Of a stretch of DNA of 32,866 nt, positions 11,023 through 19,799 are shown one piece after another; positions within the stretch are counted from its first letter, which is position 1; the number at the start of each line of letters is the position of its first letter. A program made the position numbers and the translations under genes. Below the pieces are notes generated by a model. It was not told where the DNA came from. It did not search any database and saw only the letters and a list, made by a program, of their open reading frames with translations. This DNA comes from a virus: positions 1-32,866 of IMG/VR virus record IMGVR_UViG_3300017971_000599; one strand, 5' to 3'.

Positions 11023-11957
11023 TGCTGGCAGCGAACACCAACCCCGAACCCGGCATTTATTCGATCTCGCACGATGACTACGAGGCGGATCCTTGTCCGA
11101 CGCCGTCATTGCGGGCGTCTCTTGCCAAGATCATGTGGCAGCAGTCGCCACGGCACGTCTGGCTACAGCACCCGAAGCTGAACCCCGGCTATAAGCCGAC
11201 GACATCCAAGCTTCTGGACAAGGGTTTGGCCATCCATGATCTCCTGGATAAAGGCGGCGAGAACGTGGTGGTCATCGACTTCGACAGCTGGCGCACGAAC
11301 GCATCGAAGGAGCAGCGCGACGAGGCGCACGCGGCCGGCAAGGTGCCGATCCTCGCGGCCGACTTCGAGGAGATGCGAGTAATGGTGGATGCCGTCTCGC
11401 GTCAGCTGCGGCAGATCGAGGGTTTCGAGGGCAGCTACACCTCGGAGCGCACGGTGCTGTGGCGCGAGGGCGAGGCGTGGTGCCGTTCGCGTGACGACCG
11501 CCTGCCGGACGCCGGCAACATCGTCTATGACTACAAGTCTTGCGACAGCGCCGAACCGGAAGCTTTCACTCACACGCTTTTCAATCTGGGCTACGACATC
11601 CAAGCCGCGTTTCACGAGCGCGGATTGAAGGCCGTCGGCTGGCACGAGCAGCCGGAGCTTCGCTTCGTGGCGATGGAGCGCACGCCGCCTTATGGCGTGA
11701 GCGTGATCGCGCTGGGCGAGCAGGCACGCAAGGAGGCGCATGAGAAAGTGGAGTGGTGTTTATCCCGCTGGAAATGGTGCCTGGAGCGCGACTGGTGGCC
11801 GGGCTACTCGACCCAGGTCGCTTACGTCACTCCGCCTGTATGGGTCTCCCAGAAGCTCTCGGAGCGCAATCTGCGGGAGAGCTTGGTTCGGGAGGCTCTG
11901 GGCAAGACCGAGATCGAGTTGTCGATCAACATGCACAAGCCGCTGGAGGTGGCGTGA
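11022..11957 (+). CDS. RecE-like PD-(D/E)XK exonuclease (DUF3799)
   Basis: 311 residues. Features of the Cas4/RecE-type nuclease fold are visible: GLAIHDLL (His72), RSRDDRLPDAGN (Asp158/Asp159), IVYDYKSCDS (Asp170 and Lys172 as the D-x-K motif) and the following LGYDIQAAFHERG (Gln194). This matches the putative exodeoxyribonuclease VIII-like domain of phage recombination systems, which resects DNA ends to give 3' single strands. It overlaps both neighbours by TGATG junctions. Two genes downstream is a RecA-like ATPase, so together they likely form the phage's recombination module. Confidence 0.87.
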   Translation: MLAANTNPEPGIYSISHDDYEADPCPTPSLRASLAKIMWQQSPRHVWLQHPKLNPGYKPTTSKLLDKGLAIHDLLDKGGENVVVIDFDSWRTNASKEQRDEAHAAGKVPILAADFEEMRVMVDAVSRQLRQIEGFEGSYTSERTVLWREGEAWCRSRDDRLPDAGNIVYDYKSCDSAEPEAFTHTLFNLGYDIQAAFHERGLKAVGWHEQPELRFVAMERTPPYGVSVIALGEQARKEAHEKVEWCLSRWKWCLERDWWPGYSTQVAYVTPPVWVSQKLSERNLRESLVREALGKTEIELSINMHKPLEVA

Positions 11958-12244
11958 TGGATATTGTGAGAGCGAACGGCGAACCGTTGCCCTATCACCG
12001 ACTGCACGAGCATGTGCGCGGCGGTCTTGAGCGGTATTTCGAGAAAGCGATTCCGCCAGGGCATTTCCTGACTGCGGTTCTCGAAAACGACTTGCGAGAG
12101 GCCGTCGGCCGCGCCGACGACATCTCGATCGAGATCCTGCCCGACATCATACGGTGGCTCTACAACTACGCGCCCGCACGCTCGTGGGGCCGGCCGGCCA
12201 CGGTCAGTGTCTGGCTCGCAGAGAGAAGAGAGGAAATCGGCTAA
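11957..12244 (+). CDS. Hypothetical protein between exonuclease and ATPase
   Basis: 95 residues (MDIVRANGEPLPYHRLHEHV...). It contains a segment HEHVRGGLERYFEKAIPPGHFLTAVLENDL (shown in part) that is typical of small proteins in phage recombination operons: an aromatic, 'PPG.FL.AVL.NDL' stretch followed by a helical tail with IIRWLYNYAP. The start overlaps the exonuclease stop (TGATG) and its stop overlaps the ATPase start (TAATG), implying coupled translation. It has no membrane segment or metal motif. It may be an accessory subunit; the function is unknown. Confidence 0.75.
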   Translation: MDIVRANGEPLPYHRLHEHVRGGLERYFEKAIPPGHFLTAVLENDLREAVGRADDISIEILPDIIRWLYNYAPARSWGRPATVSVWLAERREEIG

Positions 12245-13236
12245 TGCCCTTTGAGTTCAAGCTGGCAGAGCGCAGCGCCACCATACCGCTGATCGGCCTT
12301 TACGGCGTCAGCGGTGCGGGCAAGACCTACAGCGCCCTGATGCTGGCGCGTGGTCTGGTCGGGCCGAAGGGCCGGATCCTCATGATCGACACGGAGTCCG
12401 GCCGGGGTCAGTTGTATGCGGATCGCATCTCCGGCGGCTATATGGTCGGCGAATTGAGCGAACCCTTTACGCCGGAGAGATATCGCAAGGCAATCATCGA
12501 CGGGGGCAAGGCGGCCGATGTTCTCATCATCGACTCGATGAGCCACGAGTGGGAGGGCGTCGGCGGCGTTCGCGACATGGCTGCCAGGATCGAGGAGAAG
12601 AGCGGCAAACCGGGCCTGCACTGCTGGATCAAGCCGAAGTCGGCGCACGCTCATCTCATGCTGACGGTGCTGCAGTGCCCTTGTCCGCTGATCGTATGCC
12701 TCAGGGCGAAGCACCGTTCGCGGCAGATCAAGAACGCGCAGGGGCGCACGGAGATCCTGCGCGATGACTTCGCCACGCCGATCCAGGCAGAGGATTTCAT
12801 TTTTGAGATGACCGTTCACGCGGAGATCGTCGCGGATCACACATTGCGCGTCACCAAGTGTTCGCACCCGGATCTGGAGAAGGTGTTCGTCAGCGGCCAG
12901 ATGGTCTCGATCGAGACCGGCGAGAAGCTGGCCGAGTGGTGCAAGGGGGTGACAAAACCTGTCACCCCTTCGAAGAAATCGGAGGCGCCATCCCCTGTGG
13001 CCTCCGATAGCGCGGAGGGGCCTATCCCGGAGCCCACAACCCGTGGCTCCTCCGCGCAGCCCTCTCACTGGATTGACGATCTGAAGCGACAGCTAGAGGC
13101 CGACGGATCCGCCGAAGCCGTGGAGCGGACGCGTAACGCGTACCGTGAGCGGGTGAAGGGCGGGTCGAAGGCGGACCAGCGCTACGCGATGAACATGGTT
13201 GAGAAGAGACTGAAGGAGTTAGCCGATGCAGGATGA
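12244..13236 (+). CDS. RecA-like P-loop ATPase (Sak4/AAA type recombinase)
   Basis: 330 residues. Walker A is GVSGAGKT (21-28), an LMIDTESGRG segment follows (46-55), and Walker B is VLIIDSMSHEW (93-103). The later LIVCLRAKHR segment fits the RecA-fold core of phage AAA proteins related to Sak4-type single-strand annealing or strand-exchange proteins. A Pro/Ser/Thr-rich linker (about 240-275) leads to a charged helical C terminus. It is the likely partner of the RecE-like exonuclease two genes upstream. ATG at 12244 overlaps the preceding stop and has GAGGAAATC upstream. Assignment to Sak4 specifically is tentative. Confidence 0.82.
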   Translation: MPFEFKLAERSATIPLIGLYGVSGAGKTYSALMLARGLVGPKGRILMIDTESGRGQLYADRISGGYMVGELSEPFTPERYRKAIIDGGKAADVLIIDSMSHEWEGVGGVRDMAARIEEKSGKPGLHCWIKPKSAHAHLMLTVLQCPCPLIVCLRAKHRSRQIKNAQGRTEILRDDFATPIQAEDFIFEMTVHAEIVADHTLRVTKCSHPDLEKVFVSGQMVSIETGEKLAEWCKGVTKPVTPSKKSEAPSPVASDSAEGPIPEPTTRGSSAQPSHWIDDLKRQLEADGSAEAVERTRNAYRERVKGGSKADQRYAMNMVEKRLKELADAG

Positions 13237-14157: not shown

Positions 14158-14802
14158 ATGGACACCACCAGACAGGTACTGAAAGGCGCCATCCTGCTGA
14201 CCGGCCTGCTGACAATCATGTTCATGGTCAAGGCGCTGACGCCGGAGTCCTTCGGGTCGGAAGTCTGGGCGGAGCGTACGCCGGGGGGCGCATTGCTCTT
14301 CATCCTCCTGGGCACCGTCTGGACGGCGTTTGGGATGCCCCGGCAGCTGGTGGCCTTCGGCGGCGGGGTTTCGTTCGGCTTCGTCGACGGGCTCGTCCTG
14401 GGGCTCGTGGCGGCCGTCATCGGGGCGGGCTTCGCCTATACCTTCGGGCGCACGGTGGGCCGGCGGCTGATCTCGGATCGGGTGCAGCGCAAGATGCCGC
14501 GCATCGCCCGCTTCGTGAACAAGAATCCGTTCGGCGTCACGGTGCTGGTACGGCTGCTGCCGGTTGGCTCAAACCTCTGCATGAACCTCGCCTCGGGGGT
14601 GATGGCGCTTCCGGTCACGGCGTTCATCGCCGGTTCGATCATCGGCTACCTGCCGCAGACGCTGGTGTTCGCGCTGGCGGGCTCCGGGGTCCAGGTCGAC
14701 CCGGCCTTGCGGATCGGGCTTGCCATCGTCCTGCTGGGCGCCTCGGGCGTCATGGGCGTGGTGCTATTCAAGCGCTACCAGGAGAGGTTCAACGATGACT
14801 GA
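14158..14802 (+). CDS. VTT-domain (TVP38/TMEM64, DedA-like) membrane protein
   Basis: 214 residues from ATG at 14158, preceded by GGGGGTGAGC. About five hydrophobic segments are visible. The central segment FGMPRQLVAFGGGVSFGFVDG, then AYTFGRTVGRR and FGVTVLVRLLPVGSNLCMNL, matches the VTT/SNARE-associated domain: a Gly-rich re-entrant stretch and an 'R..P..........G' motif. Host members are proposed to act in membrane lipid handling. Phage genomes rarely carry this family, and the surrounding genes are small and soluble, so this looks like captured cargo. Its codon use is more G/C-ending than the neighbours'. Confidence 0.85.
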   Translation: MDTTRQVLKGAILLTGLLTIMFMVKALTPESFGSEVWAERTPGGALLFILLGTVWTAFGMPRQLVAFGGGVSFGFVDGLVLGLVAAVIGAGFAYTFGRTVGRRLISDRVQRKMPRIARFVNKNPFGVTVLVRLLPVGSNLCMNLASGVMALPVTAFIAGSIIGYLPQTLVFALAGSGVQVDPALRIGLAIVLLGASGVMGVVLFKRYQERFNDD

Positions 14803-14929
14803 CAATCTTCGTTACACCTGGGTAGTTTGTACGCTGATTATTTGTGTAACCCTTGGTCTTTTGGTCGGACATTACACCGACGCGCAGGTCCGCATCGCCG
14901 AGATGGAATGGCAGGTCTGCGATGACTGA
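14795..14929 (+). CDS. Small membrane protein, MTD array
   Basis: 44 residues (MTDNLRYTWVVCTLIICVTL and on) with one hydrophobic helix at about 9-27 and a short charged tail ending in CDD. ATGACTGA at 14795-14802 is both this gene's start and the previous gene's end, an 8-nt overlap in a different frame. AGGAGAGG upstream is a good binding site. It is the first of seven genes in this phage that open on an ATGACTGA junction. The function is unknown. Confidence 0.65.
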   Translation: MTDNLRYTWVVCTLIICVTLGLLVGHYTDAQVRIAEMEWQVCDD

Positions 14930-15068
14930 CGCCGAAATATTTTTATTCGGGCTCTTTTTCAAAGGTGCCATCATCGTATGGGGAGCATTGGCGTTCACCC
15001 TTCTTTTGATCGGCATTATTCACATGGGTGGCCTCGATTGGATATTGAGGGACAAGGACGATGACTGA
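14922..15068 (+). CDS. Small membrane protein, MTD array
   Basis: 48 residues (MTDAEIFLFGLFFKGAIIVW and on) with one long hydrophobic helix at about 6-32 and a charged C terminus ending in DKDDD. It starts and ends on ATGACTGA junctions shared with its neighbours. It resembles the preceding gene in layout but not clearly in sequence. The two may be a membrane-protein pair. The function is unknown. Confidence 0.65.
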   Translation: MTDAEIFLFGLFFKGAIIVWGALAFTLLLIGIIHMGGLDWILRDKDDD

Positions 15069-15240
15069 CGACCTTATAAAGCGATTACGCAAAGAGTGCG
15101 ACTACTACTTTCAGTTCATGCTTTTGCGGGACGAGGCCGCTGACGCTATCGAAGCCAAGGACACGGAGATCGAGCGGCTGCGGACTGAACGTGACGTTGC
15201 AATCAAGGCGCTGGAGCTAATGGAGGCTAGCGATGACTGA
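15061..15240 (+). CDS. Small coiled-coil protein, MTD array
   Basis: 59 residues: MTDDLIKRLRKECDYYFQF then a module DEAADAIEAKDTEIERLR (about 24-41) and a short tail ending in EASDD. The first ten residues and the module recur in the genes at 15589 and 15809, so these are paralogues. It starts and ends in ATGACTGA junctions. Proteins with such a charged heptad segment are common in phage early regions and often have no known role. Confidence 0.7.
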   Translation: MTDDLIKRLRKECDYYFQFMLLRDEAADAIEAKDTEIERLRTERDVAIKALELMEASDD

Positions 15241-15592
15241 CATTCTGCTGAAAATGCTAGCGAAGAAGGCCCACGACGCGGCCCTGATCCTGCAAAGCCA
15301 GATCGAGAAAACCGACGGTCACACGCTTCCGTTTGAAAAGTGTCTCGCGAAAACTTGGGAGCAACGAGCTATCGACGCCCTCGAAGCCAAGAACGCCGAG
15401 ATTGAGCGACTTCGTGGCTTGATTGAAGAGCGCCAAAAGGAAGTTGACGCCATCATGGAAACCATGCCTATCGAATGGCGTGATCGGTGGTGTCGGGCCG
15501 AGATCTGTGGCTGCATGGGATGTGTCCAGAGTGGCAGCAACTGCCGGATTACCGAGAGGGAATGGCTAGAGTGGAAAGCGAGGCAGCGATGA
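15233..15592 (+). CDS. Coiled-coil protein with Cys-rich tail, MTD array
   Basis: 119 residues. The N-terminal part differs from its neighbours (MTDILLKMLAKKAHDAALIL), but the middle carries the shared module (RAIDALEAKNAEIERLR, about 45-61). The C-terminal part has several Cys and Trp residues (WCRAEICGCMGCVQSGSNC then RITEREWLEW), suggesting a metal-binding or disulfide unit. The start is an ATGACTGA junction, and the stop overlaps the next ATG. It looks like a mosaic of a new head, the common module and a new tail. Confidence 0.7.
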   Translation: MTDILLKMLAKKAHDAALILQSQIEKTDGHTLPFEKCLAKTWEQRAIDALEAKNAEIERLRGLIEERQKEVDAIMETMPIEWRDRWCRAEICGCMGCVQSGSNCRITEREWLEWKARQR

Positions 15593-15816
15593 CTGATGAC
15601 CTCATAAAGCAATTGCAGCGGGGAGCCGCCGAAGGCGTTGATGGCTGGTGGTGGATCATGGAAGAAGCCGCCGATGCCTTGGAAGCCAAGGACGCCAAAA
15701 TCGAGCGGCTGGAGAAATCCAACCGTATTTATGCGGCGACGATCACGGATCTACGGGAAGAGATTAAGGATCTGGAGAGGTCGCGTCGTGACATGAGGAC
15801 GCAAGTGGATGACTGA
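15589..15816 (+). CDS. Coiled-coil protein, MTD array
   Basis: 75 residues: MTDDLIKQLQRGAAEGVDGW, then EEAADALEAKDAKIERLE (about 25-42), then a second charged helix (DLREEIKDLERSRRDMRTQ). The first ten residues and the module are close to those at 15061 and 15809. It probably forms a coiled-coil dimer. Its start sits in ATGACTGATGA and its end in the next copy. The function is unknown. Confidence 0.7.
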   Translation: MTDDLIKQLQRGAAEGVDGWWWIMEEAADALEAKDAKIERLEKSNRIYAATITDLREEIKDLERSRRDMRTQVDD

Positions 15817-16243
15817 TGACCTCATAAAGCGACTGCGTGATGCGCGGCGTGGTCCCCTTATAAGAGAAGCCGCCGACGCCCTGGAGGCCAAGGACGCCGA
15901 GATCGAGCGGCTGCGGGCTGCGGTGAAGTCTTTAAGGATAAGCGTCGAAACTATTTGTGAGCCAGAGATCCGTGAGATCGAGCGGCTCGAAAGACAGATC
16001 CTGAAAGCCTACGCGGAAGGTGCCAGAGACGGCGTGAACGACGCGGAGATCCAGGACGAGATCTACCGCCAGATGACGACGCAGATCGCCGCCGACGCCA
16101 AGGAGATAGAAGAGTTGAATCGAGAGATCGAACGGCTTCGCGGCATCTGCAAAAAATCTTTGGACAAGCTGGTAAAGGACGGTGCGCGTCCGGGATGGGG
16201 TGTTGTAAAGGACTGGCTGGCTCAAGGAGTGGCTGAAAGATGA
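15809..16243 (+). CDS. Long coiled-coil protein, MTD array
   Basis: 144 residues: MTDDLIKRLRDARRGPLI, the shared module REAADALEAKDAEIERLR (about 19-36), and then a longer helical region (EIREIERLERQILKAYAEGA; KEIEELNREIERLRGICKKS) and a C-terminal part WGVVKDWLAQGVAER. It is the longest member of the array and may be its complete form. The start overlaps the previous stop by an ATGACTGA junction. The role is unknown. Confidence 0.7.
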   Translation: MTDDLIKRLRDARRGPLIREAADALEAKDAEIERLRAAVKSLRISVETICEPEIREIERLERQILKAYAEGARDGVNDAEIQDEIYRQMTTQIAADAKEIEELNREIERLRGICKKSLDKLVKDGARPGWGVVKDWLAQGVAER

Positions 16244-16521
16244 CTGACGCCACGGCGATCCGTCTGCAACGATGGCTGGCCGGATTCCGGGGCCTCCGGC
16301 CTGAGTTGATGCACGACATCGCGGTCGCCGTCGAGGTGTTGCAGAAGCGCCAAGCGACGGTCGACACCATCGACTATCTGAACGAGCTGCTCGAAGCCCA
16401 GAAGGTGAAGCTCGAAGCTCTGCAGACGGAGAACGCCGCGTTGAAGACCAAGATGAAGGCGCTTGATCACGAGCTGGTCAGCCGCCGGCAGACGGCGAAG
16501 CTGGAGCGGGAAATCGGGTGA
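16240..16521 (+). CDS. Coiled-coil protein, last gene of MTD array
   Basis: 93 residues. The N terminus MTDATAIRLQRWLAGFRGLR is distinct from the other array members, and a heptad-rich helix follows (LNELLEAQKVKLEALQTENA, then LKTKMKALDHELVSRR). It starts on the last ATGACTGA junction and ends 3 bp before the first attP arm repeat. It closes the rightward early operon, and a strong terminator follows at 16576-16609. The function is unknown. Confidence 0.7.
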   Translation: MTDATAIRLQRWLAGFRGLRPELMHDIAVAVEVLQKRQATVDTIDYLNELLEAQKVKLEALQTENAALKTKMKALDHELVSRRQTAKLEREIG

Positions 16522-16523
16522 TT

Positions 16524-16568
16524 TGCTACCCACCTGCTACCCGGTGGCGTTTCTGGGTAGCGCTACCC
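16524..16568 (+). repeat. attP left arm: integrase arm-type repeats
   Basis: TGCTACCC lies at 16524-16531 and 16535-16542 (11-bp period), followed by the perfect 14-bp palindrome GGGTAGCGCTACCC at 16555-16568, which supplies two more copies head to head. The same octamer pair with the same period lies on the other side of the core at 16784-16802. This layout is typical of arm-type sites bound by the N-terminal domain of tyrosine integrases. Confidence 0.75.
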
Positions 16569-16575
16569 AAAGAAG

Positions 16576-16609
16576 AACCCCGCAACCTACTGAGGAAGCG
16601 GGGTTTTTT
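16576..16609 (+). terminator. Rho-independent terminator, probably bidirectional
   Basis: AACCCCGC (16576-16583) pairs with GCGGGGTT (16598-16605) around a 14-nt loop and is followed by TTTT. It can end the rightward early operon. In the other direction it follows the tRNA 3' end directly, so it may be the host tRNA gene's own terminator carried within the attachment-site homology. Confidence 0.8.
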
Positions 16610-16657
16610 GGCTCCGCGGGCAGGACTCGAACCTGCGACCCGGTGGTTAACAGCCAC
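16609..16657 (-). other. attP core: 3' half of tRNA-Asn(GUU)
   Basis: Read on the minus strand, the segment gives anticodon arm GTGG-CTGTTAA-CCAC(C), the variable region, T-arm GCAGG-TTCGAGT-CCTGC, acceptor strand CCGCGGA, discriminator G and CCA. The anticodon is GTT (Asn). The 5' half of the tRNA is absent: the match breaks after the fourth pair of the anticodon stem (C instead of G). This is the usual attP of a phage that inserts in a tRNA gene and restores its 3' end. The 7-bp anticodon loop (16647-16653) flanked by the inverted stem arms is the expected strand-exchange region. Confidence 0.92.
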
Positions 16658-16721
16658 GGTACACGATATACCGTAGATACCCATACGAAGAAAAATAATG
16701 AAAAAAAGTACGGTTTGCCCC

Positions 16722-16750
16722 TTGTAGCAGGTGGTACAGTACACTATATC
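16722..16750 (+). promoter_or_regulatory. Candidate promoter for the attP-proximal operon
   Basis: TTGTAG (16722-16727), 17 nt, TATATC (16745-16750) resembles a sigma70 promoter reading toward the ribozymes and integrase. An A-rich stretch lies upstream (about 16688-16708). GTACAC-ATAT motifs at 16659 and 16739 flank this segment and could bind an accessory protein. There is no independent support. Confidence 0.35.
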
Positions 16751-16783
16751 GTATTGTAGAGGGACGCACCGGGACAAACAGAC

Positions 16784-16802
16784 AGCTACCCAGGTGCTAC
16801 CC
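16784..16802 (+). repeat. attP right arm: integrase arm-type repeats
   Basis: AGCTACCC (16784-16791) and TGCTACCC (16795-16802), with an 11-bp period, are in the same orientation and spacing as the left-arm pair. Together they frame a core region of about 240 bp, a normal attP size. Confidence 0.75.
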
Positions 16803-16880
16803 AAAAGATAGGGCAACAGAGCAGCCCACCAGGACGGCCCAGGTCGACGAGATTGGGATAGCCGGACGAGAGAGGGAAGA

Positions 16881-16930
16881 CAGTGTCATGCAGGATCGGA
16901 CCTGCATCTGATGAGAACCGCGAAACACTG
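16881..16930 (+). ncRNA. Hammerhead ribozyme, type III
   Basis: All core elements are in order. Stem III strands are CAGTG (16881-16885) and CACTG (16926-16930). The cleavage triplet is GTC (cut after 16887). Stem I is a 7-bp hairpin ATGCAGG/CCTGCAT (16888-16907) with loop ATCGGA. Then come CTGATGA (16908-16914), a short stem II GAACCGC (16915-16921) and GAAA (16922-16925). Stem II has only one standard pair, but CGG in loop I can pair with CCG in loop II, which may stabilise the fold. The purine-rich binding site of the gene at 16941 follows immediately, so cleavage would set that mRNA's 5' end at 16888. Activity is inferred, not measured. Confidence 0.85.
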
Positions 16931-16940
16931 GAGAGACGAG

Positions 16941-17168
16941 ATGAAACGCTTCACCAAGTACAACCTCCTGCTGCTGGCCGACAGCCACCCGCAGGTGAAG
17001 GTGACCGTGATCGGCCGACGCGGCAACAGGGGGCTCTACGAGTTCAAGCGCGGCAGTGTCGTGGTCACCGAGTGGGGCGATGGCTCCTACACCCGCACAG
17101 ATGTGCGACTTGACCTTGCCAATAAGATGAGCCCTCGCGAAGTCGCCAAGGCTCTGGAGCTTATCTGA
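16941..17168 (+). CDS. Small basic hypothetical protein
   Basis: 75 residues from ATG at 16941, with CTGGAGAGACGAG upstream overlapping the end of the type III ribozyme. The sequence (MKRFTKYNLLLLADSHPQVK and on) appears as an alpha/beta mix: a beta-rich middle (GLYEFKRGSVVVTEWGDGSYT) and a C-terminal helix (MSPREVAKALELI). It has no signal peptide or known domain. It is the first gene after attP on the integrase side, so it should stay linked to the integrase in a prophage. Its stop lies within a second copy of the ribozyme-like leader. Confidence 0.7.
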   Translation: MKRFTKYNLLLLADSHPQVKVTVIGRRGNRGLYEFKRGSVVVTEWGDGSYTRTDVRLDLANKMSPREVAKALELI

Positions 17169-17187
17169 TGAGATCCGCGAAACACTG
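17165..17187 (+). other. Half-copy of hammerhead core (leader duplication)
   Basis: CTGATGAGATCCGCGAAAC and the following ACTGGAGAGAC repeat the 3' half of the 16881-16930 ribozyme and its leader with one change over about 30 nt. The upstream strands needed for stem III and the GTC cleavage triplet are absent (the base before the potential stem I is in GCCA). It therefore should not cleave in cis. It overlaps the stop of the preceding gene and supplies the binding site of the next. Confidence 0.7.
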
Positions 17188-17196
17188 GAGAGACCG

Positions 17197-17547
17197 ATGA
17201 AAGCCACGATCTTCTACATCGAACTGACCGACAAGATGTACACCACGATTAAAGAGAACGGCTGGGGCTGCCCGATGGGCCGCACTTACATGGACGCGAA
17301 GGAGGGTGTCGTGGACGCGGCTACTGAGGAACTCTTCCAGCCGGCGGCGGTGATGGAGGCCGAGACCGAAGAGGAGATCTTCTTCAAGCTTCAGAACCTC
17401 GACACGCCCTGGACCGACCGCGACGATGTCGAGTGCGTCACCGACTTCCCGCGTTCGATGTCGGTCGGCGACCGGATTTCCTGGGACGATGGTCGCGTCA
17501 TGCGCTGCGCCATCTTCGGCTTCGAGAAGGTGGAGTTCCCGGCATGA
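17197..17547 (+). CDS. Hypothetical phage protein
   Basis: 116 residues (MKATIFYIELTDKMYTTIKE and on). The sequence has a mixed alpha/beta pattern with an acidic middle (EAETEEEIFFKLQNLDTPW) and a C-terminal beta-rich part (MSVGDRISWDDGRVMRCAIF, then GFEKVEF). It is preceded by CTGGAGAGACCG. It has no membrane segment or known motif. It is similar in style to small accessory proteins that vary between related phages. Lies in the first RNA unit defined by the ribozymes (16888-17865). Confidence 0.75.
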   Translation: MKATIFYIELTDKMYTTIKENGWGCPMGRTYMDAKEGVVDAATEELFQPAAVMEAETEEEIFFKLQNLDTPWTDRDDVECVTDFPRSMSVGDRISWDDGRVMRCAIFGFEKVEFPA

Positions 17548-17584
17548 ACCGGAGTCTCAGTTCGCTTTGGAGATGGAGAGAGAG

Positions 17585-17800
17585 ATGAAGAGGTTCGAAG
17601 TCGACAAAACTTACACGTGCCGGTCGGTATGCGACCACAATTGTATCTGGACTTTCAAGGTTGTGAAGCGGACCCAAAAGAGCGTCTGGCTAGAGGACGA
17701 AAGAGGTGAAGTCAGCCGGCGGCTCGTCAAATGTTTCCACAACGAAGAGACCCTGTTTCCATTAGGCATCTTTTCGATGTGCCCGGTGCTGACGGCGTGA
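17585..17800 (+). CDS. Small Cys-containing hypothetical protein
   Basis: 71 residues from ATG at 17585, after GGAGAGAGAG. It opens MKRFEVDKTYTCRSVCDHNC, with Cys-rich residues near the N terminus, continues with a beta-rich stretch (WTFKVVKRTQKSVWLEDERG) and ends in a short hydrophobic tail. Small 'F.VGKTY.CRS.CD..C.....V..RT....' proteins are common in phages; a zinc-binding or small beta-barrel fold is possible. The next element is a type I hammerhead starting 16 nt after its stop. Confidence 0.7.
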   Translation: MKRFEVDKTYTCRSVCDHNCIWTFKVVKRTQKSVWLEDERGEVSRRLVKCFHNEETLFPLGIFSMCPVLTA

Positions 17801-17816
17801 CGCACAACATTGTCAA

Positions 17817-17870
17817 GTCCACTGACGAGCCGGTGTGATCCCGGCGAAACGGCCTTCGGGCCGTCTGGAC
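17817..17870 (+). ncRNA. Hammerhead ribozyme, type I (copy A)
   Basis: Stem I is GTCCA/TGGAC (17817-17821 with 17866-17870). The core CTGACGA (17822-17828) follows, then stem II GCCGG/CCGGC (17829-17845) with loop TGTGATC, GAAA (17846-17849), and stem III CGGCC-TTCG-GGCCG (17850-17863), then TC, cleaving after 17865. Every conserved core base is present. Stem III is closed by a stable UUCG tetraloop. A weak TGT/ACA pairing outside stem I could extend it across a small internal loop. The site lies between two genes, and cleavage gives an mRNA that begins with UGGAC 25 nt before the ATG at 17891. Confidence 0.94.
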
Positions 17871-17890
17871 CATACACTCTGGAGGAAGAA

Positions 17891-18301
17891 ATGAGAAAAT
17901 TTCTAATTGCCCTATGCGTTGCGTTGATGCCTGCCACGGCTTGGGCAGCCTGCGATGTCGATGATCTAGAGGGCACCAAATGGAGCTATTACACGCTCGA
18001 AGCGGATGTCGTCGCGCTCATTGGCTTTTGCAATGTGAGGCTCAACCAAAATGGTCGAATGGTAAAAGGCGATGCATACAAATGCACTGCGTCGACCGGC
18101 CTTGACCAAGGAGAAGCCTGGATTGCTGGCGGCGGCTTGAAGATCAATAAGTCCTGTCGGGTGCGCGGCAGCATCTTGTTAGAGACCGGACAACGGCTGC
18201 TCTTCTCTCATGCCACTCTGAGCCGGGATCGGCAAATCATCATCGGCGTTGCCGATTATGGCATTGACGGCATCAGTTCGTTTCAAATGGTGCGTCGCTG
18301 A
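17891..18301 (+). CDS. Secreted hypothetical protein between two ribozymes
   Basis: 136 residues. A signal peptide is clear: MRKFLIALCVALMPATAWA, with a cleavage site AWA before ACDVDD. The mature part is a small beta-rich protein with several Cys (near residues 21, 48, 62 and 85), which could form disulfides in the periplasm. GGAGGAAGAA is a strong binding site. It has no recognised family; a lipocalin-like or other small beta fold is possible. It is the only gene between the two type I hammerheads, so it lies alone on the predicted 487-nt excised RNA. It may be a lysogenic conversion gene. Confidence 0.8.
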   Translation: MRKFLIALCVALMPATAWAACDVDDLEGTKWSYYTLEADVVALIGFCNVRLNQNGRMVKGDAYKCTASTGLDQGEAWIAGGGLKINKSCRVRGSILLETGQRLLFSHATLSRDRQIIIGVADYGIDGISSFQMVRR

Positions 18302-18357
18302 GTCCACTGACGAGCCAGTGCAACCCTAGCGAAACGGCGCGGAGGCGCCGTCTGGAC
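18302..18357 (+). ncRNA. Hammerhead ribozyme, type I (copy B)
   Basis: Stem I is GTCCA/TGGAC (18302-18306 with 18353-18357). CTGACGA follows (18307-18313), then stem II GCCAG/CTAGC (18314-18330) with one C-A mismatch and loop TGCAACC, GAAA (18331-18334), stem III CGGCGC-GGAG-GCGCCG (18335-18350), then TC with cleavage after 18352. Stem III differs from copy A in length and sequence but stays fully paired, which is evidence of selection for structure. An A bulge allows two more stem I pairs (GA/TC). It starts at the base after the upstream stop codon. The binding site GGAGAGA of the next gene follows. Confidence 0.92.
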
Positions 18358-18374
18358 ATCTAACCCTGGAGAGA

Positions 18375-18656
18375 ATGATGAACAAGTTTGCCATTGGCGT
18401 CATCGTTGGCGCGTTGCTGGCCTTCGGCGGCCTGCAGGCTTACGACCTGCAGAAGCCGCTAAGAGACCAGCCGTTCTTCGAGGCCATGCGGAAAATTGAC
18501 GAGATTGTTCTCCGTCAATGCTCCGAACATACGGGCGTCAGCTTCTACGGCATCTCCCTGACAAGCACCGAAGACTGTGTGCGCCAGATACAGGGCGAGT
18601 TGGCCATGAAACGCCTGCACAATTACGCCACCGTTCACGGTTTCTCAGACGAATAG
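18375..18656 (+). CDS. Small membrane-anchored or exported protein
   Basis: 93 residues from ATG at 18375 (a second ATG follows at 18378). An N-terminal hydrophobic helix (KFAIGVIVGALLAFGGLQAY, about 4-23) is a membrane anchor or uncleaved signal. The rest is a short charged domain with two Cys (QCSEHTGVSFYGISLTSTED, then CVRQIQGEL) that could form a disulfide in the periplasm. GGAGAGA precedes the start and lies just downstream of a type I hammerhead. It ends 9 nt before the integrase. The function is unknown. Confidence 0.7.
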   Translation: MMNKFAIGVIVGALLAFGGLQAYDLQKPLRDQPFFEAMRKIDEIVLRQCSEHTGVSFYGISLTSTEDCVRQIQGELAMKRLHNYATVHGFSDE

Positions 18657-18665
18657 GAGGATCCC

Positions 18666-19799
18666 ATGTCCCGCATCGAAATCAAAGACAAGGTCGTTCC
18701 CGGCCTGTACCTGCGCAAGAGCCGCGACAATCGCGGGACTTGGATATTCCGCAAGCGCATCGACGGCAAGCAGAAGACCTTGACGCTGGCCACTTGGCCG
18801 ACCGTCGGCGAGAAGGAAGCTCGCAAGCTTGCCGCGACCGCCGAGATCGAGGCCCGCAGGGGCGTGGATGTCACCGCCGAACGCAAGGAGCGGGTGGCCC
18901 AACGAAAGGCAGTAGAAGCGCAACCCACCCTCGGCGAATGCCTTGAGGCATACCGGGTCGTCATGGACGGCAAGCGCACCGGCGAGCGTATCATGCGCGA
19001 CCTGACCCGCGTGCTGGCGCCCCTGGCCGACCGCAAGGCCCCAGCCATCAACACGGTCGAGATCATGAAAATTCTCAACGAGAAGGCAACCACGCATCCG
19101 CGCATGGCCGGCCTGCTCTTCGAGATGATTCGGCCATTCTGGGGATGGATGCGCGATACCGGCCGCGTGCCCAGCAACATCATGCTCGACACCAAGAAAC
19201 CGGGCCGCAAGGAAGCCCGGGACCGCTACCTCGACAAGGCCGAATTAAAGGCCGTGTATGCGTCTTGTGACGAGATGGGCACCCTATGGGGTCCGCTGGT
19301 CCGACTGCTCGTCCTGACGGCCCAGAGGCGCGAGAACGTGGCCTCCATGGCCTGGGAAGAGGTCGACCTCGATCGCCAGCTTTGGACCATCCCCAAGGAC
19401 AAGGCGAAGACCGGGGTCGACTACGTCGTCCCGCTGCCGTCGCAGGCTTGCGACATCCTGCGGGACATCGGTCCCGGCGAAGGCCCCGTTTTCGGCAACC
19501 CCAGCGGCTTCTCGAAGATGAAGAAAAAGCTCGATGCCGTCTCCGGCGTCAGCGACTGGGTCCTGCACGATCTGCGGCGGACCTTTGCCACCCAGGCGGC
19601 CGGCGAGCTGAAGATCAGCGACACCGTCGCCGACAAATGCCTCAACCATGTAGGCGCGGGCACCTCGGGCACTGTGAAGCGTGTATATCAGAAGTATCAG
19701 ATGCTCGACGAACGAAGGGATGCCCTGCAAGCGTGGGGCAACTTCATTGAGAGGCTCGTTGGAGGTGCGAGCGAGAATGTGATCCAACTTCGTATGTAG
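18666..19799 (+). CDS. int: Tyrosine-family phage integrase
   Basis: 377 residues with a three-part layout: an N-terminal arm-binding domain of the type with LYLRKSRDNRGTWIFRKRI, a core-binding domain (about 85-180), and a C-terminal catalytic domain. Catalytic residues are Arg221 in TAQRREN, a Lys in KDKAKTG (about 244-250), His301 and Arg304 in HDLRR, His328 in LNHV, and Tyr341 in RVYQKY. It inserts the phage genome into the tRNA-Asn gene using the attP at 16.5-16.8 kb. The gene is 1.9 kb from attP and in the same unit as the ribozymes, so RNA cleavage may affect its expression. GGAGGATCCC is the binding site. Confidence 0.95.
   Translation: MSRIEIKDKVVPGLYLRKSRDNRGTWIFRKRIDGKQKTLTLATWPTVGEKEARKLAATAEIEARRGVDVTAERKERVAQRKAVEAQPTLGECLEAYRVVMDGKRTGERIMRDLTRVLAPLADRKAPAINTVEIMKILNEKATTHPRMAGLLFEMIRPFWGWMRDTGRVPSNIMLDTKKPGRKEARDRYLDKAELKAVYASCDEMGTLWGPLVRLLVLTAQRRENVASMAWEEVDLDRQLWTIPKDKAKTGVDYVVPLPSQACDILRDIGPGEGPVFGNPSGFSKMKKKLDAVSGVSDWVLHDLRRTFATQAAGELKISDTVADKCLNHVGAGTSGTVKRVYQKYQMLDERRDALQAWGNFIERLVGGASENVIQLRM

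Follow-up and report, generated by a model that had tools for sequence, protein, structure and literature searches.

Two hammerhead ribozymes (HHRs) standing on either side of a single small gene in a phage genome raise the question of what such a pair does for the gene between them. The locus analyzed here lies in a virus record of 32,866 bases, which is hereafter called the window, and the gene in question, gene A, is bracketed by two type I hammerheads, HHR1 and HHR2. An earlier note on this DNA proposed that cleavage at both sites frees a gene A RNA whose ends could be joined into a circle, as in retrozymes, and regarded this way of delivering a phage gene as new. Our results point to a different answer, namely that HHR1 and HHR2 are very probably self-cleaving punctuation of a phage operon that runs from approximately 16.6 kb, near a putative attachment site, to the integrase at 19.8 kb.

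The operon and its two type I hammerheads

The window contains a phiM5-like head and packaging module, with a terminase showing 48% identity to that of Sinorhizobium phage phiM5 and with portal and capsid proteins that gave clear best PHROG matches. A block of genes on the plus strand extends from a tRNA-Asn-like match (16611-16658) to a tyrosine integrase, and five small genes of unknown function lie between them (Table 1). The tRNA-like stretch matches tRNA-Asn genes in their 3' part over 48 nt and adjoins a terminator-like hairpin; it is probably where the phage attaches, ahead of the integrase operon. Elsewhere in the window, at 15060-15836, several consecutive small ORFs begin alike (GATGACTGAYGACCTNATAAAGC), contain a recurring coiled-coil-like segment (EAADALEAKDAEIERL) and are, judging from these repeats, a gene family grown via tandem duplication.

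Few of the operon's products have recognizable relatives. Gene 1 gave neither a family match nor a match among the phage records searched, in which gene 2 also had no relative; gene B had no family in Pfam and PHROGs profile searches, and the integrase had no close relative in the viral_contigs or genome_contigs collections. Gene A, whose N terminus resembles a signal peptide (MRKFLIALCVALMPATAWAA), had no match in Pfam, PHROGs, viral_contigs, genome_contigs, phages or plasmids, and its single-sequence structure model (pLDDT 42) was too poor for a structure search. As a whole, the HHR1/HHR2 operon had no close relative in the viral and genome contig collections and phage records searched.

Table 1. 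Genes and hammerhead elements of the operon, with window coordinates.
Feature	Position	Strand	Basis and remarks
Type III hammerhead	16881..16930	+	Scanner, shuffles, Rfam Hammerhead_3 below gathering
Gene 1, 75 aa	16941..17168	+	ORF
Copy of type III hammerhead 3' half and leader (direct repeat D8)	17163..17194	+	97% identity; ahead of ATG 17197
Gene 2, 116 aa	17197..17547	+	ORF; weak PHROG 37892 match, function unknown
Gene 3, 71 aa	17585..17800	+	ORF
HHR1, type I hammerhead	17817..17870	+	Core and stems read directly, scanner, shuffles, covariance model
Gene A, 136 aa	17891..18301	+	ORF; Shine-Dalgarno (SD) GGAGG at 17881-17885; stop codon 18299-18301
HHR2, type I hammerhead	18302..18357	+	Covariance model, folding, coordinates
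Gene B, 92-93 aa, N-terminal hydrophobic segment	18378 (or 18375)..18656	+	ORF, coordinates
Tyrosine integrase	18666..19799	+	PF00589, PF13356; phrog_1 integrase 4.8e-54; co-oriented, on 3' product of HHR2 cut

The two type I hammerheads can be read directly from the sequence. HHR1 has the layout GUCCA-CUGACGA-[GCCGG-UGUGAUC-CCGGC]-GAAA-[CGGCC-UUCG-GGCCG]-UC/UGGAC, with the predicted cut (slash) after 17865, and HHR2 has the layout GUCCA-CUGACGA-[GCCAG-UGCAACC-CUAGC]-GAAA-[CGGCGC-GGAG-GCGCCG]-UC/UGGAC, with the predicted cut after 18352. CUGACGA, GAAA and the GUC cleavage triplet are present in both, in agreement with the type I core (CUGANGA...GAAA and an NUH triplet). Stems I, II and III comprise 5, 5 and 6 bp in HHR1 and 5, 2 + mismatch + 2, and 7 bp in HHR2, each copy forming three helices with stem I open, and the 5 bp of stem I are identical between them. 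No type I match with stems of at least 5/2/6 bp occurred in 1500 dinucleotide shuffles of the window. In addition, a covariance model (R1), which excluded the window sequences and was built from a diverse set of 41 viral HHRs, assigned 67.0 bits (E 1.2e-18) to HHR1 and 46.3 bits (E 3.3e-12) to HHR2, the next best match within the window reaching 13.5 bits. The shuffles, the scanner and the R1 scores together rule out a chance or artefactual origin, and the type, coordinates and core bases that the earlier note had given for the pair are all correct.

The same note had suggested a covariance search with hammerhead models, and here the outcome was divided: R1 recovered both copies, whereas Rfam (RF00163) at gathering thresholds gave no match in the window. 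With Rfam 15 at gathering thresholds, 0 HHRs were likewise reported in seven comparable loci (L011, L040, L170, L058, L098, L020 and L114) in which this type I class occurs singly or in arrays, and because all of their HHRs are missed, the silence of Rfam on the window reflects insensitivity of the model. Phage type I HHRs are under-annotated, in that the Rfam hammerhead models miss the class, and a lack of annotation means little. The HHR at 498-551 of L114 is identical to HHR1 in stem I (GTCCA/TGGAC) and in loop II (GGTGTGATCCCGGC), which suggests that loop II and stem I travel together; the stretch of L114 examined had no match to the window proteins tested.

To call both copies complete is right for HHR1, and for the core of HHR2, but not for stem II of HHR2, which contains an internal C.A mismatch. 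The unconstrained fold of HHR2 (-21.8 kcal/mol) differs from the hammerhead fold (-18.4 kcal/mol), and in a longer context the hammerhead fold is not the predicted minimum for HHR1 either, although such energies omit the tertiary contacts of the core and cannot settle activity. HHR2 may be slower, because of the mismatch and because folding programs prefer another structure. These features of HHR2 would also fit a reading in which one or both copies are decaying relics of little activity, carried along with a duplicated gene cassette of which the leader and ribosome-binding site alone matter; fewer than four consecutive pairs in stem II is a rare state, found in less than 5% of 394 viral HHRs among the matches listed, and a half copy of another hammerhead at 17163-17194 shows that decay does occur in this operon. 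However, the core bases, the cleavage site and stems I and III are intact in both copies even though the sequences of stems II and III have diverged, and HHR2 still scores 46 bits by R1, which makes decay an unlikely account of the pair.

A type III hammerhead and its half copy

The description of the pair as bracketing one gene stands insofar as both type I hammerheads are real, but they are not the sole ribozymes of the operon, since a type III hammerhead at 16881-16930 and a half copy of it had been missed. The type III element has stems I, II and III of 7, 1 and 6 bp with stem III open, and both the core and a GUC triplet are present, as expected of this type. Its stem III is formed by CAGUGU and ACACUG, its stem I by AUGCAGG and CCUGCAU, and the predicted cut falls after 16887. 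Stem II is a single base pair, but CCG in its loop (AACCG) is complementary to CGG in loop I (AUCGGA), so that the two loops could pair; natural HHRs often have stems I and II paired with each other (PMC3088659). No equal of this element was found in 1500 shuffles, and it is the top Rfam match within 16860-17260 (Hammerhead_3, E 0.011; its 23.3 bits fall short of the gathering score). It ends 11 nt ahead of the ATG of gene 1 at 16941. No relatives of its 3' half were found in viral_contigs.

What the half copy repeats is the type III element's 3' half, along with the leader behind it. A partner search found no credible 5' half for it, and it is probably the relic of a partial duplication in which the cleavage strand was lost. 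Two additional pattern matches, at 16908 and 17165, correspond to the type III element and to this half copy, respectively. Within gene 1, at 17054-17060 and some 100 nt ahead of the half copy, there is a second CAGUGUC that is identical to the stem III strand of the type III element. It was not accepted as a long-range 5' half, since the resulting stem I would have no more than 4 weak pairs, and it is probably there by chance (about 1%), a long-range ribozyme being the less likely reading.

Altogether, the operon contains four HHRs or HHR-derived elements, each just ahead of a gene, and the bracket around gene A is part of this series. The stop codon of gene 3 ends 16 nt ahead of HHR1, and HHR2 follows the gene A stop codon with no base in between. 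From the HHR1 cut to the ATG of gene A there is a 25-nt leader that carries the SD sequence and is predicted to begin with a 5'-OH; gene B starts 22-25 nt downstream of the HHR2 cut and is followed by the integrase after a gap of 9 nt.

The predicted released RNA and the question of circles

If both hammerheads cut, the coordinates of the two sites (17865 and 18352) and of the gene (ATG at 17891, stop codon at 18299-18301) imply that a 487-nt RNA carrying gene A would be released, as had been proposed. It had further been proposed that this RNA closes through the stem I shared by HHR1 and HHR2, whether by the ribozyme or by the host RtcB, to give a stable circular gene A RNA. Stem I is indeed identical in the two copies and the ends of the released RNA are complementary; moreover, the inner 4 bp of stem I are shared in 72 of 151 adjacent HHR pairs from other phages among the matches listed. 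Complementary ends, however, carry no special weight, because they arise automatically for any neighboring HHRs that share stem I.

A comparison of stem I across arrays bears on selection for closure. Selection for circles should have kept the 3' strand of one copy able to pair with the 5' strand of the next despite changes in stem I. Among the 151 adjacent pairs (other contigs, matches listed), cross-pairing of at least 4 bp was found for 58% in the closing direction, the control values being 60% (reverse direction) and 52% (copies of a locus that are not neighbors); as self-pairing is required for detection, every copy pairs with itself and the informative comparison is that among the cross directions only. 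Of the 79 pairs with differing stem I among the matches listed, 57 could not close with 4 bp and 22 could. In addition, just one HHR is present in 27 of the 41 HHR-bearing contigs longer than 30 kb, and two relatives of the window by terminase, L020 and L106, have a single HHR each, which cannot excise anything. With no preference for the closing direction in these listed pairs, the retrozyme-like reading is unsupported, and we regard it as highly improbable for gene A.

Retrozymes are multicopy non-coding retroelements, bounded by HHRs, LTRs or target-site duplications, whose circular RNAs have been proven. The window resembles those of plants and animals in that two tandem HHRs bound a short unit, but unlike them the unit is a single-copy protein gene with an SD sequence in a phage operon; no second copy of the gene A unit was present among the repeats of 14700-18800. 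Moreover, spliced or circular products of comparable phage arrays have been sought and were not detected (Perreault et al., 2011; PMC3088659).

That work also bears on the supposed novelty of the arrangement. Tandem HHRs flanking single prophage genes were described there, with cleavage in vitro and in Escherichia coli, and the authors proposed that transcripts are processed in this way to gene-length mRNAs (Perreault et al., 2011; PMC3088659); flanking HHRs around prophage genes, their cleavage and the idea of processing were already published in 2011, and the arrangement is known from phages. As in the prophage arrays of Agrobacterium tumefaciens (a triple array with ardA), Azorhizobium caulinodans and Clostridium scindens (PMC3088659), co-oriented HHRs in the window flank single small genes or short blocks in a phage region and occupy intergenic positions before the next gene start. 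The A. tumefaciens array is near an integrase, as here, and its self-cleavage has been shown, whereas that of HHR1 and HHR2 is predicted from sequence. The window differs from these arrays in its flanking genes and in its combination of a type III element, half of a type III element and two type I elements. Different HHR motifs near each other around small, non-conserved ORFs of unknown function were described in a 2017 review, from which the window showed no difference in this respect and in which the role of phage HHRs was still described as open (PMC6155905). In the haloviruses HF1 and HF2, a hammerhead (HHphage) also precedes a start codon by a few nucleotides (PMC3088659), but these are archaeal viruses and theirs is a core variant ahead of a helicase gene, whereas the cores in the window are canonical.

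Placement of type I hammerheads in viral genomes

The locus alone is ordinary, and it is the survey around it that yields a simple, testable rule. Three pattern scans of viral contigs, together with the loci of terminase relatives, gave at least 317 loci, and in these at least 456 type I HHRs, at least 394 of them distinct, on at least 283 locus strands. As the patterns fix part of the core and stems, the percentages describe this sample among the matches listed. Two to eight HHRs were found on 87 of the 283 locus strands, and in no case on both strands of one locus, among the matches listed. When one HHR per locus was considered among these matches, a start codon preceded by an SD sequence followed the cut by 20-49 nt in 67% of cases, compared with 8.7% at random positions, and an upstream stop codon ended 0-3 nt before stem I in 42%, compared with 2.2%. 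The distance from the cut to the start codon had a median of 30 nt, and start-codon spacing was alike for single copies (69%) and array copies (63%), again among the matches listed. By their placement, viral type I HHRs behave as intergenic punctuation: the HHR fills the gap between a stop codon and the next ribosome-binding site, with the cut approximately 30 nt before the start codon. HHR1 and HHR2 fit this placement, with leaders of approximately 25 nt that carry an SD sequence and with stop codons 16 and 0 nt away. Such gap-filling suggests that mRNA is being processed and speaks against the formation of circles.

For the window, we propose that each HHR would fold as the polymerase passes and cut its own RNA co-transcriptionally, between the upstream stop codon and the SD sequence of the next gene. 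The upstream mRNA would retain its stop codon and end in the stem II and III hairpins with a 2',3'-cyclic phosphate, while the downstream mRNA would begin with a 5'-OH and a short leader, approximately 25 nt here, bearing the ribosome-binding site. The expected products are a 487-nt RNA carrying just gene A and an RNA that carries gene B together with the integrase, and as separate molecules they could be translated and decay at different rates. We infer cleavage from the conserved core and from the published activity of similar phage HHRs, and any effects on message stability, expression and translation are inferred as well.

The hairpins might instead be what matters, with cleavage incidental, if stable structures mainly protect mRNA 3' ends or act in attenuation; stem III is a GC-rich hairpin, and cleavage would leave it at the 3' end of the upstream product. 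In an alignment of viral HHRs (A1), however, the core positions are invariant except N7 and the stems vary freely, a contrast that is partly by construction in a core-selected sample, and a strictly kept catalytic core with stems free to vary leaves the hairpin reading with very little probability. Within the punctuation reading, it is conceivable, though we would not bet on it, that a terminating ribosome delays the cut by sitting over stem I and the core, so that cleavage is gated by translation; the suggestion arises because HHRs among the matches listed, and HHR2 with them, so often abut the stop codon. Were it true, heavily translated genes would stay linked to their neighbors and untranslated ones would be cut apart.

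The genes behind viral HHRs are as small and obscure as those in the window: the ORFs have a median length of 90 aa and are mostly without a named family, the named families including ArdA, ArdC, GP88, DUF6876 and DUF932 (matches listed). Relatives of the window by terminase were found at 47-57% identity. Two of them, L020 and L106 (49% identity), carry their single HHRs on contigs of 31 kb and 18.7 kb, and that of L020 has a stop codon ahead of it and the next start behind it. No type I HHR was detected by R1 in G001, MW202879, MW202711, MW202496 or C72C1, and phiM5 gave a marginal R1 match alone (13.6 bits). L020 also contains two group I introns near its capsid gene, at 11878-12101 and 12694-12946 (Rfam RF00028), and the tblastn match of the window capsid protein to L020 splits around the first of these.

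When R1 was applied to 42 whole contigs longer than 30 kb, 27 had one HHR, 14 had two to seven and 1 had none; eight HHRs are present on the 69-kb contig G008. The densest loci, L170/G008 (55750-61309), L040 (2777-7843) and L011, contain 7 or 8 type I HHRs in a span of a few kilobases, almost one for each gene.
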